A DNA stretch of 34,254 nt from positions 1 to 34,254 of the forward strand of contig NZ_AFPM01000015.1 in assembly GCF_000220565.1 (NCBI RefSeq), read 5' to 3'. The notes beneath the pieces were generated by a model, which did no database searches, had not been told where the DNA came from, and saw nothing but the letters and a program-made list of their open reading frames with translations. The position numbers were made by a program, and so were the translations under genes. Below, piece by piece: positions 550-21,434 of this stretch (its first letter is position 1; every line of letters begins with the position of its first letter). This DNA is from Oceanicola sp. S124 (lineage in GTDB: Bacteria > Pseudomonadota > Alphaproteobacteria > Rhodobacterales > Rhodobacteraceae).

Positions 550-2058
550 ATGACACGGCCCCGTGCCCGCCCCGCGCCACGGCTTCAGGACCGCCTGGCG
601 CTTTCCTACGGACAGAAGCTGTTCCTTCTGGCCACGCTGCCGCTCATCCTGGCGGTGGCGGCAATCTCGCTGCTGGTGGCGGCGCAGTCGCGCGCCCTGG
701 CCGAGCGCGAGATCGCGGCGCTGGAACGCCAGATGATCGCCGCCAAGAAGGCCGAGCTGCGCAACTACGTCGACCAGGCCCGCAACGGGTTGAACCGGAT
801 CTACGGCATGGCCGGCCCGGATGACGGCCGCGCCCAGGAGCAGGTCAAGCAGATCCTCTCGGCGATGATCTACGGCGACGAGGGCTTCTTCTTCGTCTAC
901 GACTACGACGGCACAAACCTGGTCTCGCCGCGCCAGACCGGGATGATCGGGCAGAACTGGCTTGATCTGACCGATGGCAACGGCGTGGCGGTGGTGCGCG
1001 AGTTCATCAAGACCGCGCGCCAGGGCACCGGCTATGTCACCCATCTCTGGCCCAAGCCCTCGACCGGGCAAGAGGCGCTGATGGTGACCTACGTGACCGC
1101 CCTGCATTCCTGGAGATGGGCCATGGGCACCGGCGTCTTCATCGACGACGTGCTGGCCACGACGGCAGCGGCGCGGGCCGATGTCGAGGCGCGGGTGCAG
1201 CGCACCTTCCTGCATATCGGCGGCATCACGGCGGGCGCGCTGGTGCTGGTCTTCGCCTCGGGCCTGTTGATCAACATCCGCGAGCGGCGGCTGGCCGATG
1301 CCAAGCTGAAGGCGCTGACCCAGCGGGTCTTCGATGCCCAGGAGGAAGAGCGCGGCCGCGTCGCCCGCGAGCTGCACGACGGCATCTCGCAGCTGCTCGT
1401 CGGGGTGCGGTATGCGCTGGACAGCGCGCGGCGCCGGCTCGATGCCGGCGACGCGCGCGCCGGCGAGACGCTCGACCGCGGCATGTCCTCGCTGTCGGAG
1501 GCGATCCAGGAGGTGCGCCGCATCTCGCGCGACCTGCGGCCCGGGGTGCTGGACGATCTCGGCCTCGGCCCGGCGCTGAAGGCGCTGATCGAGGACTTCG
1601 GCGCTCGCACCGGAATCGCCGTCGACTTCTCGACCGTGGTGTTCCGCAACCGGCTGCAGAACGACGCCAAGATCGCCCTTTATCGCATCGCCCAGGAGGC
1701 GCTGACCAATGTCGAACGCCACTCCGGCGCGTCCCATGTCGCCATGGACTTGCGTGGCCACCGCTCGGGCGCCACGCTGAAGATCTCGGACGATGGCTGC
1801 GGCCTGCCAGGGGCGGCGCAGCAGGCCAAGGGCATGGGCCTGAGGAACATGCAGGAACGGGTCGACCAGGTGGGCGGCACACTGCGCATCTTCTCGACCC
1901 GCAGCGGCGCCGAGACCGGCACGCTGATCGAAGTCACCGTGCCGCCCTCGAAGGTGATCGACGCCTCCTCCGACGATCTCGACGCCCGCGAGGCGCCGGC
2001 CCAGAAGAACCCGCGCGTGGTCTCCTCCCCGCGCCGCAAGGGAAAGGACAGCGCATGA
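550..2058 (+). CDS. Membrane sensor histidine kinase with Cache domain, NarL/HisKA_3 type
   Basis: This 502-residue kinase has a membrane helix at about 24-45, an extracytoplasmic Cache-type sensor (about 50-215, with GDEGFFFVYDYDGTNLVSP), a second helix at about 220-243, and a HisKA_3 dimerisation/phosphoacceptor segment with H276 in ARELHDGISQ. The C-terminal HATPase_c domain shows N387 in EALTNVERH, a G box near DDGCGLPG and GMGLRNM. It would autophosphorylate on His276 and pass phosphate to the response regulator whose ATG overlaps its stop (ATGA). Cache sensors of this type often bind small organic acids. The divergent TRAP binding-protein gene makes control of solute uptake a reasonable inference, but the ligand is not visible in the sequence. 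Confidence 0.92.
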   Translation: MTRPRARPAPRLQDRLALSYGQKLFLLATLPLILAVAAISLLVAAQSRALAEREIAALERQMIAAKKAELRNYVDQARNGLNRIYGMAGPDDGRAQEQVKQILSAMIYGDEGFFFVYDYDGTNLVSPRQTGMIGQNWLDLTDGNGVAVVREFIKTARQGTGYVTHLWPKPSTGQEALMVTYVTALHSWRWAMGTGVFIDDVLATTAAARADVEARVQRTFLHIGGITAGALVLVFASGLLINIRERRLADAKLKALTQRVFDAQEEERGRVARELHDGISQLLVGVRYALDSARRRLDAGDARAGETLDRGMSSLSEAIQEVRRISRDLRPGVLDDLGLGPALKALIEDFGARTGIAVDFSTVVFRNRLQNDAKIALYRIAQEALTNVERHSGASHVAMDLRGHRSGATLKISDDGCGLPGAAQQAKGMGLRNMQERVDQVGGTLRIFSTRSGAETGTLIEVTVPPSKVIDASSDDLDAREAPAQKNPRVVSSPRRKGKDSA

Positions 2059-2717
2059 CCAGCGCCCCGAAGCCGCAGCCCGCCCCGCCGGTGCGCGTCG
2101 CCATCGTCGACGATCACGCCCTGGTGGCCGAGGGCATCGAGGCCATTCTCGACAGCTTTCCCGACATCCAGGTCGTCGGCACCTACAGCAATGGCCGCGG
2201 CATCATCGAGGCGGTCGAGGACATCCGCCCCGATGTCATCCTGCTGGATCTCAACATGCCCGAGATGGGCGGCCTGACCGCCTGCGAGATCCTGCTGGAA
2301 GAACACCCCTGGCTGAAGATCCTGATCCTGTCGATGCATGACAGCCCCGAGTACATCTCGACCGCGCTGGACCATGGCGCGCGGGGCTACGTGCTGAAGG
2401 ACGTGCCGACGGACGAGATCAAACGCGCCATCGACGCGGTCATGGCCGGAGAGCGTTACCTCTGCACCGGCGCCCAGGGCTCTCTCGCGCCGCCGCGCGG
2501 AGCCGGGCACCTGACCAACCGCGAACAGACGATCCTGCTACAGCTGGCCCAGGGCAAATCCAACAAGGAGGTCGCCATCGCGCTGGATATCTCTGTCCGC
2601 ACGGTCGAGACGCACCGCAAGAACATCAAGAAGAAGCTCGGGATCTCCTCGACCGCCGGCCTCACCCGCTACGCGCTGGAACACGGCGTGCTGCGCGACG
2701 CGACGCAGAGGTTCTGA
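2055..2717 (+). CDS. LuxR/NarL-family response regulator
   Basis: This 220-residue protein has an N-terminal receiver domain with the acidic pair D19-D20 and phosphoacceptor D65 (LLDLNMPEMGG), and the conserved Lys in GYVLKDV. It ends in a LuxR-type helix-turn-helix (about 153-205: LTNREQTILLQLAQGKSNKE... VRTVETHRKNIKKKLGI). The start ATG overlaps the kinase stop codon, so the two are translationally coupled partners. Phosphorylation would promote dimerisation and DNA binding. Likely targets are the divergent TRAP transport genes and its own operon (inference). Confidence 0.93.
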   Translation: MTSAPKPQPAPPVRVAIVDDHALVAEGIEAILDSFPDIQVVGTYSNGRGIIEAVEDIRPDVILLDLNMPEMGGLTACEILLEEHPWLKILILSMHDSPEYISTALDHGARGYVLKDVPTDEIKRAIDAVMAGERYLCTGAQGSLAPPRGAGHLTNREQTILLQLAQGKSNKEVAIALDISVRTVETHRKNIKKKLGISSTAGLTRYALEHGVLRDATQRF

Positions 2718-3033
2718 GACCCCGCCGGCCGCGCTGCCTCCGTCCCTGCGCCCCGGCCCGGCGGGATGGTTCCCGGCGCCCGTTCGCGCCCAGGGGCCTG
2801 CGAGCGCGGGCCAGGGCGCCGGGAGGATCGGGCAACCGCAGGCCCACTCCGGTTGCCGCCCAGATGCCGCTCGGTTGCCCCCGGGTGCCGCGACGGCAGG
2901 AAAGCCCTTGTCCACAGGGCTCCGCCGCTTTTCGCTGCGACGCCGCGCCGTTTTCCGCAAAGATTTCCGCCAAAAGACGCAACTTTCGGAAACAAAATGA
3001 GGAACCAGCGAAACTTTTCTCTCGCATTAACGG
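2718..3033. other. Gene-free stretch with short repeats and hairpins
   Basis: No coding sequence is supported. GGCAACCG at 2831-2838 pairs with CGGTTGCC at 2850-2857, and a further direct copy of CGGTTGCC lies at 2872-2879. AGCCCT...AGGGCT forms a small hairpin near 2903-2921. CCCGCCGGCC (2721-2730) can pair with GGCCCGGCGGG (2754-2764) just after the response-regulator stop and may end that transcript, although no T-run follows it. Confidence 0.5.
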
Positions 3034-3062
3034 TTGACCTTCCGAAAATCCCCTCGTATGCC
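3034..3062 (+). promoter_or_regulatory. Candidate promoter of the ilv leader and ilvBN operon
   Basis: TTGACC (3034-3039) and TATGCC (3057-3062) are 17 nt apart. The local sequence is unusually A/T-rich for this window. Transcription would begin near 3069, about 24 nt before the leader-peptide start and upstream of its AAGGAG. The -35 is strong and the -10 weak, so the exact promoter is a best guess. Confidence 0.5.
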
Positions 3063-3092
3063 TCCCTATACGAACGAAGGAGCCCTTGGGAC

Positions 3093-3140
3093 ATGACCGC
3101 GCTAGTAATTATCGTAGGAGCTTGGCGCATGGGCCGGTGA
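3093..3140 (+). CDS. Branched-chain amino acid leader peptide (attenuator ORF)
   Basis: A 15-residue ORF encodes MTALVIIVGAWRMGR. It has AAGGAG (3077-3082) ten bases upstream of its ATG. The run Leu-Val-Ile-Ile-Val uses CTA, GTA, ATT, ATC and GTA; CTA, GTA and ATT are A/T-ending codons that are scarce in this GC-rich window, which would make ribosome stalling sensitive to charged tRNA levels. It sits between the putative promoter and an intrinsic terminator ahead of ilvB. This is the arrangement of the enteric ilv and leu leaders, where stalling prevents terminator formation. The arrangement is seen directly; the regulatory role is inferred from known attenuators. Confidence 0.85.
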   Translation: MTALVIIVGAWRMGR

Positions 3141-3170
3141 AAGCCGGAGACCCGTTCAGGACCCCATGCG

Positions 3171-3198
3171 CCCCCGGATCATCCCCCGGGGGTTTTTT
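3171..3198 (+). terminator. Attenuator terminator upstream of ilvB
   Basis: CCCCCGG (3171-3177) pairs with CCGGGGG (3186-3192) across an 8-nt loop and is followed directly by six T (3193-3198), a textbook intrinsic terminator placed 65 nt before ilvB. An earlier hairpin (GGGCCGG 3131-3137 with CCGGAGACCC 3144-3153) overlaps the leader stop codon and could be the pause or protector stem. The CCGG at 3144-3147 could alternatively pair with the terminator's 5' arm as an antiterminator. A third stem, CCCGCG/CGCGGG, lies at 3203-3220. Confidence 0.82.
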
Positions 3199-3262
3199 AT
3201 TGCCCGCGCCCAGGCGCGGGGGCGAGGAGAGCCGCAACAGCGGCGACAGACGGAGAAGCAAG

Positions 3263-5017
3263 ATGGCACGTCAGATGAGCGGTGCGAAAATGGTGGTCCA
3301 GGCCCTGAAGGATCAGGGTGTGGACACGGTATTCGGCTATCCCGGCGGTGCCGTCCTGCCGATTTATGACGAGATCTTCCAGCAGAACGACATTCGCCAC
3401 GTGCTGGTGCGCCACGAACAGGGCGCGATCCATGCCGCCGAGGGCTATGCCCGCTCGACCGGCAAGCCCGGCGTGGCACTGGTGACCTCTGGCCCCGGGG
3501 CGACCAATGCGGTCACCGGGCTGACGGATGCGCTGCTCGACTCGATCCCGCTGGTCGTGCTCTCGGGCCAGGTGCCGACCTTCATGATCGGCACCGACGG
3601 CTTCCAGGAGGCCGACACCGTCGGCATCACCCGTCCCTGCACCAAGCACAACTGGCTGGTCCAGGACACCGACGACCTGGCGCGGATCCTGCATTCCGGC
3701 TTCCATGTCGCCACCTCGGGCCGTCCCGGCCCGGTGCTGATCGACATTCCCAAGGACGTGCAGTTCGCCACCGGCACCTACCAGCCCAAGCCCAAGGCGA
3801 CCGAGTACCGCTACCAGCCGCGGCTCAAGGCCGATGTCGAGGATCTGACCGAGCTGGTTGCGGCACTGGAAACCGCCAAGCGTCCGGTCTTCTATACCGG
3901 TGGCGGCGTGATCAACTCGGGCCCCGCCGCGTCGCAGTTGCTGCGCGAGCTGGTCGAGGCCACCGGTGTGCCGATCACCTCGACCCTGATGGGGCTTGGC
4001 GCCTACCCGGCCTCGGGCGAGAAGTGGCTGGGGATGCTGGGCATGCATGGTCTCTACGAAGCCAACATGGCGATGCATGACTGCGACCTGATGATCTGCA
4101 TCGGCGCCCGTTTCGACGACCGTATCACCGGGCGCACCGATGCCTTCTCGCCGAACTCTCTGAAGGCCCATATCGACATCGACCCCAGCTCGATCAACAA
4201 GGTGATCCACGTCGACTTCCCCATCGTCGGCGACATCGCCCATGTGCTCGAAGACCTGCTGCGCATCTGGAAGGCCCGCGGCCGCCAGATGAACCGCGAG
4301 GGCCTGGCCAAGTGGTGGAAGAAGATCGAGGGCTGGCGCGAGGTGAAATGCCTCACTTACAAGACCTCCGACAAGATCATCAAGCCGCAGTACGCGCTTG
4401 AACGGCTCGAGGCGCTGACCAAGGACCGGGATCGCTACATCACCACCGAGGTCGGCCAGCACCAGATGTGGGCGGCGCAGTTCCTCGGCTTCGAGGATCC
4501 GAACCGCTGGATGACCTCGGGCGGGCTCGGCACCATGGGCTACGGTTTCCCCGCCTCGATCGGCGTGCAGATGGCCCACCCCGAAAGCCTGGTGATCAAC
4601 GTCGCCGGCGAGGCCTCCTGGCTGATGAACATGCAGGAGATGGGCACCGCGGTGCAATATCGCCTGCCGGTCAAGCAGTTCATCCTCAACAACGAGCGCC
4701 TCGGCATGGTGCGCCAGTGGCAGGAACTGCTGCACGGCGAGCGCTATTCCTCGAGCTGGTCCGAGGCGCTGCCCGATTTCGTCAAGCTCGCCGAGGCCTT
4801 CGGCGCCAAGGGCATCCAGTGCTCGGACCCTGCCGACCTCGATGACGCGATCATGGAGATGCTCAACTACGACGGCCCGGTGATCTTCGACTGCCTGGTC
4901 GAGAAGCACGAGAACTGCTTCCCGATGATCCCGTCGGGCAAGGCCCACAACGAGATGCTGCTCGGCGACGCCTCGACCAAGGGCGCCATCGAGGTCGGCG
5001 GCGCGGTGCTGGTGTAA
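3263..5017 (+). CDS. ilvB: Acetolactate synthase, large (catalytic) subunit
   Basis: This 584-residue thiamine-diphosphate enzyme condenses pyruvate with pyruvate or 2-ketobutyrate, the first common step of valine/leucine and isoleucine synthesis. The N-terminal domain carries the FGYPGGAVLPIYD motif and catalytic Glu52 (VRHEQGAIHAAEGYAR). A central FAD-binding domain and a C-terminal ThDP domain follow. In the ThDP/Mg motif the usual GDG is GEA (Glu450, in AGEASWLMNMQE), followed 26 residues later by NN. As far as I recall, this variant is common to alphaproteobacterial IlvB proteins and is not a defect. The ATG has GGAG seven bases upstream and aligns with family starts. It is transcribed with ilvN and preceded by the leader-peptide attenuator. 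Confidence 0.96.
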   Translation: MARQMSGAKMVVQALKDQGVDTVFGYPGGAVLPIYDEIFQQNDIRHVLVRHEQGAIHAAEGYARSTGKPGVALVTSGPGATNAVTGLTDALLDSIPLVVLSGQVPTFMIGTDGFQEADTVGITRPCTKHNWLVQDTDDLARILHSGFHVATSGRPGPVLIDIPKDVQFATGTYQPKPKATEYRYQPRLKADVEDLTELVAALETAKRPVFYTGGGVINSGPAASQLLRELVEATGVPITSTLMGLGAYPASGEKWLGMLGMHGLYEANMAMHDCDLMICIGARFDDRITGRTDAFSPNSLKAHIDIDPSSINKVIHVDFPIVGDIAHVLEDLLRIWKARGRQMNREGLAKWWKKIEGWREVKCLTYKTSDKIIKPQYALERLEALTKDRDRYITTEVGQHQMWAAQFLGFEDPNRWMTSGGLGTMGYGFPASIGVQMAHPESLVINVAGEASWLMNMQEMGTAVQYRLPVKQFILNNERLGMVRQWQELLHGERYSSSWSEALPDFVKLAEAFGAKGIQCSDPADLDDAIMEMLNYDGPVIFDCLVEKHENCFPMIPSGKAHNEMLLGDASTKGAIEVGGAVLV

Positions 5018-5215: not shown

Positions 5216-5782
5216 ATGAACGCACTTAAGATCAAGAAGGGCGCGACCAGCCACTCCGCCTACAACCTTCGCCCCACCTTCTCGGACGTGGTCGAACAGC
5301 ACACCCTCGCGGTGCTTGTCGACAACGAAGCAGGGGTTCTAGCCCGGGTCATCGGCCTGTTTTCGGGGCGTGGCTACAACATCGAAAGCCTGACCGTGGC
5401 CGAGGTGGATCACACCGGCAAGCGGAGCCGCATCACCATCGTCACCCGTGGCACACCCCAGGTGATCGAGCAGATCAAGGCCCAGCTTGGCCGCATCATC
5501 CCGGTGCACCAGGTCAACGACCTGACCGTCGAAGGCCCCTCGGTCGAGCGGGAGCTGGCGCTGATCAAGGTCGAGGGCAGCGGCGACAAGCGGGTCGAGG
5601 CCCTGCGGCTGGCCGATATCTTCCGCGCCAAGGTGGTGGATTCCACCCATACCAGCTTTGTCTTCGAGCTGACCGGCGCGCCCGACAAGATCGACGCCTT
5701 CGCCGAGCTGATGCGCCCCCTCGGCCTGGTCGAGCTGGCCCGCACCGGCGTCGCCGCCCTGTCGCGCGGCGGCGAGGCCTGA
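5216..5782 (+). CDS. ilvN: Acetolactate synthase, small (regulatory) subunit
   Basis: This 188-residue protein has an N-terminal ACT domain at about 28-105 (LAVLVDNEAGVLARVIGLFSGRGYNIESLTV) and the C-terminal small-subunit domain (LALIKVEG... VVDSTHTSFVFELTG). The ACT domain binds valine or other branched-chain amino acids for feedback inhibition, and the subunit activates IlvB. AAGGAGG lies seven bases before the ATG. It is about 25 residues longer at the N-terminus than the enteric small subunits, as I expect for alphaproteobacterial homologues. A strong terminator follows at 5822, closing the two-gene operon. Confidence 0.96.
   Translation: MNALKIKKGATSHSAYNLRPTFSDVVEQHTLAVLVDNEAGVLARVIGLFSGRGYNIESLTVAEVDHTGKRSRITIVTRGTPQVIEQIKAQLGRIIPVHQVNDLTVEGPSVERELALIKVEGSGDKRVEALRLADIFRAKVVDSTHTSFVFELTGAPDKIDAFAELMRPLGLVELARTGVAALSRGGEA

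Positions 5783-21358: not shown

Positions 21359-21434
<76 letters not shown>

Follow-up and report, generated by a model that had tools for sequence, protein, structure and literature searches.

How might transcription of the acetolactate synthase genes of Oceanicola sp. S124 be controlled by the short stretch of DNA that precedes them, and how widely is this arrangement shared? In the window, i.e., the whole stretch of 34,254 nucleotides that was analyzed, ilvB (large subunit; 3263-5017, forward strand) and ilvN (small subunit; 5216-5782, forward strand) were identified with the NF006581 (1133.7 bits for a cut-off of 974) and NF008864 (226.8 bits for a cut-off of 119) models, respectively. 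A previous sequence-only reading had placed a promoter, a Shine-Dalgarno site, a leader peptide, competing hairpins and a terminator, in that order, ahead of ilvB and interpreted them as a leader-peptide attenuator. All the named parts were found in the sequence, in the order given, 5' of the ilvB start codon (ATG at 3263). We propose that the element is very probably a ribosome-mediated transcription attenuator of ilvBN that senses charged Leu, Val and Ile tRNA. This proposal is based on the conserved parts, the paired changes, the enrichment in rare codons and the modelled switch. Further upstream of the leader, the translations of the ORFs at 550-2717 (forward strand) resemble a sensor histidine kinase and a LuxR-type response regulator.

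The leader ORF and its conservation in the order

The leader ORF, MTALVIIVGAWRMGR*, consists of 15 codons followed by a TGA stop codon (3093-3140, forward strand) and was delineated from the sequence, the relatives and shuffles. It is preceded by the Shine-Dalgarno sequence AAGGAG (3077-3082, forward strand). As relatives, we used the best 80 of 591 confirmed ilvB stretches, most of which were titled Rhodobacteraceae or one of its genera, with one titled Alphaproteobacteria (L050) and one Maritalea (L052). Using a script, the leader tail, then the T tract and the 3' strand of a stem named P1, were found before ilvB in 79 of these best 80 relatives. In the last one (L001), the contig begins inside the leader and the end of the tail is still visible. 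This locus was dropped, so that the alignment, named A1, had 80 rows, one for the window and 79 for the other loci; the L078 tail was located using a separate anchor.

The promoter candidate of the window is made of TTGACC (3034-3039) and TATGCC (3057-3062), on the forward strand, with a 17-nt spacer. A generic sigma-70 scan did not detect a promoter upstream of the leader, because the -10 box is weak. In A1, TTGAC was present 49-82 nt 5' of the leader start in all 80 rows, the first two positions of the -10 box were T and A in 73 and 76 rows, respectively, and a purine core was located at most 22 nt from the leader start in 79 of 80 rows.

At the scale of the order, a covariance model (R1) matched 264 of 292 genomes at an E value of 0.01, with a single match, at ilvB, in the genome of the window. 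Among the 28 genomes without a match, 20 were read by eye. In six of them (L135, L141, L144, L147, L149 and L151), ilvB has a divergent leader, again with L/I/V codons and a terminator. No ilvB leader was seen by eye in the other 14, which are L136 and all 13 from the genus g7 (L137-L140, L142, L143, L145, L146, L148, L150 and L152-L154), an apparent loss of the ilvB leader among the 13 listed genomes of this genus. In a phylum sample of 398 genomes, we obtained 27 matches, 24 in the family of the window and three weak ones elsewhere (E 4e-4 to 7e-4). Presence of the leader at 79 of the 80 ilvB loci and in most genomes of the order supports the leader-peptide attenuator reading. The alignment of relatives that had been suggested as a check of this reading showed conserved leader codons and stems, with paired changes in P1, in a second stem (P2) and in the terminator. 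The main weight of the case for a putative attenuator is this conservation in relatives.

Composition of the control codons

The control codons of the leader are CTA GTA ATT ATC GTA (Leu Val Ile Ile Val; 3102-3116, forward strand). Their unusual A/T-ending usage, pointed out from the sequence, was borne out by a family-wide enrichment compared to ilvB; the number given at that time, three, has to be corrected, as A or T is the last base of four of the five codons. L/I/V runs were counted in frame with the leader stop in the rows of A1. The longest run had five or six codons in 69 of 80 rows, four in seven, three in three and one in a single row, so that 76 of 80 rows have a run of at least four codons, and the run terminates at codon 8 in 65 of 80. 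With the commonest residues, the leader consensus is xxLVVIVGxxRMGR. By comparison, an ORF 8-35 codons long in which five L/I/V codons follow one another was present in just 3 of 5000 dinucleotide shuffles of 3033-3262.

We compared codon usage between the leader run and ilvB at the same loci. CTA accounted for 53 of 97 Leu codons in the run versus 70 of 3678 in ilvB, GTA for 109 of 210 Val codons versus 161 of 3458, and ATT for 39 of 83 Ile codons versus 438 of 2923; ilvB of the window itself has no CTA and one GTA. A bias toward codons read by rare isoacceptors would suit a starvation sensor. The bias could also stem from a need to keep the leader RNA unstructured. The window also carries a tRNA-Val gene with the anticodon TAC (21359-21434, reverse strand), which would read the GTA control codons.

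Stems and terminator of the leader RNA

Two stems and a terminator were delineated, all on the forward strand. The 5' strand of P1, GGCGCATGGG (3124-3133), lies within leader codons 11-14 and is a candidate antiterminator; its 3' strand, CCCATGCGCC (3163-3172), has its last bases in common with the terminator. P2 (3134-3147), supported by folding and paired changes, is a small hairpin that encloses the leader stop codon. The terminator hairpin (3170-3193) has seven G-C pairs and one G-U pair, with the arms CCCCCGG (3171-3177) and CCGGGGG (3186-3192), and is followed by a T6 tract (3193-3198), where the attenuated RNA is expected to end. In comparison with shuffles, the fold of the leader RNA had a z score of -2.86, that of P1 with its loop -3.79, and that of 3136-3198, which lacks the P1 5' strand, -0.66. 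The terminator pattern taken by itself was found no more often than expected by chance (one found, 1.0 expected). A scan of the window with the Rfam 15 families at gathering score returned two tRNAs and no attenuator match.

In A1, 97.9% of the P1 and P2 cells were paired, and four pairs showed two-sided changes for a shuffled mean of 0.6, a number reached in none of 500 shuffles; sliding the partner by one to three columns gave at most two such pairs. For example, a G-C pair is replaced by A-U in L012 and L041, and L078 has G-C in place of A-U. Four of the nine P1 pairs are invariant, and paired changes were observed in two of the three pairs of P2, whose consensus is CCG-GUAA-CGG. For the terminator, 99.6% of the cells were paired and three pairs had two-sided changes (shuffled mean 0.1, 0 of 500 shuffles as high, at most two with the partner slid), with a tract of T5 or longer on its 3' side in 80 of 80 rows. 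These paired changes support the stems without proving them, because related sequences can exceed shuffles in the absence of structure. The stop codon and the base ahead of it read GTAA in 63 rows, GTGA in 13 and GTAG in two, with other sequences in two; the leader stop codon thus usually lies within a GNRA-type loop. In the window, P2 has a GAAA loop and a shifted register. A separate 1:2 hairpin was not evident, and P2, which is small and located at the stop codon, was all that was seen.

A modelled switch at the end of the control codons

According to the proposed mechanism, transcription would start near 3069 and the leader would be translated close behind the RNA polymerase. With Leu-, Val- and Ile-tRNAs charged, the ribosome would pass codon 8 and cover the P1 5' strand, so that the full terminator would form and the RNA would end near 3198. 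Shortage of any of these tRNAs would make the ribosome wait at codons 4-8, so that P1 (3124-3133 with 3163-3172) could form at the expense of two or three terminator pairs, the outermost ones, and the polymerase would read past the trimmed terminator into ilvB. Completing the last pairs of a terminator is generally regarded as the rate-limiting step of intrinsic termination, and we propose for this reason that the loss of the basal pairs would be sufficient for read-through.

To model the switch, the RNA was masked up to the 3' edge of the ribosome (P-site base +15) and the equilibrium pairing was computed. Averaged over the 80 rows, the probability of the terminator closing pair was 0.35-0.46 while the A site was at codons 3-7, increased to 0.79 for codon 8 and reached 0.95 for codon 9 onwards, the ribosome-free RNA being intermediate (0.57). 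The second basal pair rose on average from 0.53-0.62 to 0.97-0.98. In the window, the closing pair went from 0.06 at codon 7 to 0.87 at codon 9. The boundary of the modelled step is therefore the end of the control codons; when the footprint edge was varied from +12 to +18, the step remained between codons 6 and 10. In the naked whole leader, the Shine-Dalgarno sequence pairs with the 3' arm of the terminator instead. This pairing was considered as a candidate antiterminator and set aside by eye: among the 80 upstream sequences, its extra GCC/GGC match is absent in several (e.g., L016, L023, L071 and L080), and the remaining match is that of any purine-rich site with a T tract.

As an antiterminator candidate, P1 showed ribosome dependence in the model and a partial exclusion of the terminator, through two or three shared pairs. 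Just two pairs are shared in 79 of 80 rows, and a third is possible in the 30 rows with a G in column 33; L078 and L117 were left unassigned in this overlap count. In the window, a terminator hairpin of 6 bp is left once P1 has formed, and P1 and the trimmed terminator are both present in the minimum-energy state predicted for 3124-3198. Such a small overlap and such a joint state would fit a P1 that is not an antiterminator, and stacks on the terminator and helps it or protects the RNA, with another pairing deciding read-through in a leader that would still be a translated attenuator. We give this alternative a minor but appreciable chance. Against it, the position of the modelled switch coincides with the end of the control codons, and 5 of the 22 related copies upstream of MFS genes (see below) share four pairs, which points to competition. 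With P1 as the candidate antiterminator, the element may work by denying the terminator just its last two or three pairs.

Conservation of the leader tail

The RMGR tail of the leader is conserved (R in 78, M in 77, G in 79 and R in 77 of 80 rows) and its codons are nearly invariant too. Such conservation could reflect a terminated leader RNA or a leader peptide acting in trans, besides or instead of the control in cis, and there is a precedent in Alphaproteobacteria: in Sinorhizobium meliloti, the RNA and the peptide of a trp attenuator (rnTrpL and peTrpL) are described as acting in trans (PMC10117765). For ilvB, we consider a trans role unlikely, because the conservation of the tail codons is explained by their being part of P1 and P2. 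In addition, the leader of one locus (L035) is interrupted by a stop at codon 11, 3' of the control codons, and retains the P1 and P2 sequence beyond it. This single natural case hints at a selection on the RNA and not on the peptide, and for this reason a function of the RMGR tail as a peptide was judged unlikely.

Related copies upstream of Bcr/CflA-type MFS genes

Two R1 matches were obtained in 19 of the 292 genomes of the order. The second copies were examined in 11 genomes and all 11 precede an MFS gene (L155-L164 and L166); in the other eight genomes, the second match is weak, with an E value no better than 0.00166. In a class sample of 385 genomes, 26 matched R1: five from the family of the window, 11 at E 6e-6 or better and 10 at 8.8e-5 to 0.0088. 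All 11 of the middle group (L113-L123) precede an MFS gene and all are outside the family of the window, and the 10 weak matches (L124-L134) were dropped after a brief look. A second model, R2, built from 22 MFS-linked copies, matched 16 of the 385 class genomes, which are the same five and the same 11 as with R1. Among nine genomes of one outside family, four matched and two of these matches were new (L196 and L197). No Rfam 15 match was found for five MFS-linked loci.

TIGR00710 (Bcr/CflA efflux) was the best NCBIfam match for all 21 transporter proteins scanned. Sixteen of them pass its cut-off of 200.9 bits and five are just below it (192.5-199.9), three of the latter having an N-terminus shortened by the chosen start. 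The proteins of L123, L196 and L197, outside the 21 scanned, align with the other leadered transporters. Overall, identities among the 24 leadered transporters range from 45 to 98%, with a median of 53%, and L167, a homologue from the genome of the window, has a median identity of 41% to them. By eye, no such leader was seen at two MFS homologues in the genome of the window, nor was an ilvB leader of this kind seen within 330 bases in the 11 outside genomes, where ilvB may be under other kinds of control. In L188, L191, L193 and L195, other short ORFs with 4/6 L/I/V codons and without the tail were found 5' of ilvB. In L185, L186 and L190, from genomes carrying the MFS-linked unit, a GC-rich stretch followed by Ts was observed 5' of ilvB.

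In the MFS-linked set, 90.9% of the cells were paired and four pairs showed two-sided changes, a number reached in 28 of 500 shuffles; sliding by -2 gave five such pairs, and these paired changes are unconvincing alone. Several MFS-linked leaders have short or interrupted Val/Ile runs (e.g., L122, L162 and L164). Given the weak paired changes and the broken runs, the MFS-linked element rests on sequence likeness and position, and a tRNA signal is less certain there. Attenuation upstream of a drug transporter is described at bmrB-bmrCD of Bacillus subtilis, where it is ribosome-mediated (PMC4191407). According to this description, bmrCD encodes an ABC transporter of a Gram-positive bacterium induced by ribosome-targeting drugs, whereas the copies described here precede MFS genes and many have Val/Ile runs. 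By analogy with bmrCD, the MFS-linked copies may respond to translation-slowing drugs.

We see about an even chance that, in Alphaproteobacteria, two unrelated outputs depend on a single attenuator cassette, with ilvBN downstream of it in most Rhodobacterales and a Bcr/CflA-type MFS gene in scattered lineages. In that case, a branched-chain aminoacyl-tRNA or drug signal would control the transporter, and the cis element would have been passed between genes. The anatomy in common is a Val/Ile-rich leader usually ending in R-x-x-R or the like, a stop-codon hairpin, P1 and a terminator. In a limited literature search over titles and abstract openings, which is weak evidence of absence, we found no earlier description of the MFS-linked copies.

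The related units upstream of transporters, together with the drug-sensing attenuation at bmrCD as far as described (PMC4191407), could also mean that the ilvB leader senses slowed translation generally, for example by drugs, and not branched-chain aminoacyl-tRNA. This seems very unlikely: the L/I/V run of the ilvB leaders is nearly constant and rich in rare codons, and the gene product makes those very amino acids. Finally, a chance association of an unrelated short ORF with a random terminator-like hairpin, with which the terminator pattern alone would agree, has a negligible probability and is already refuted by the conservation in relatives (264 of 292 genomes), the paired changes and the 3 of 5000 shuffles.

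Comparison with known attenuators

In the enteric ilv and leu attenuators, stalling at Leu, Val and Ile codons selects an antiterminator over the terminator. This antiterminator takes most of the 5' arm of the terminator, and a separate 1:2 hairpin exists. The element described here differs by its two or three shared pairs and by the lack of an evident 1:2 hairpin. The sequence-only reading had regarded the mechanism as one established in enteric bacteria; it is not known from them alone, as alphaproteobacterial ilvB leaders have been described. Citing papers report an alphaproteobacterial ilvB leader peptide (Vitreschak et al., 2004, according to PMC1273637) and an ilvBN leader of Caulobacter crescentus with tandem Ile and Val codons (Tarleton et al., 1994, according to PMC4117421). 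As these leaders are already in print, we assign the element of the window to a known kind. In these citing descriptions, they are alike in having an ORF with Ile/Val codons before ilvB(N), a terminator and a switch depending on ribosome position, and belong to the same class; compared to the leaders as known from such descriptions, the order of the window has a leader of 15 codons, an RMGR tail folded into P1 and P2, and a two-pair overlap. The ilvB-II motif, or ilvBNC uORF, of Corynebacterium, rich in Ile, Leu and Val codons and placed with an antiterminator and a terminator before ilvB, is similar to the element of the window by its design and is, in the account that we used, reported in Corynebacterium only (PMC11109978). 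In Rhodobacterales, the order of the window, the cysS uORF (uORFC-8-2) is described as a candidate for ribosome-mediated attenuation; it differs by its cysteine codons and its position before cysS (PMC8632094).

Overall, for ilvBN, these results provide a precise anatomy for how most genomes of the order probably sense branched-chain amino acids. With its small overlap between P1 and the terminator, the element is a clean case for whether termination is decided by the last base pairs of a terminator. Of greater importance are the MFS-linked copies: they would link a transporter named for efflux to a signal of amino-acid starvation or translation stress, and they suggest that an attenuator can be transferred as a whole from one gene to another.
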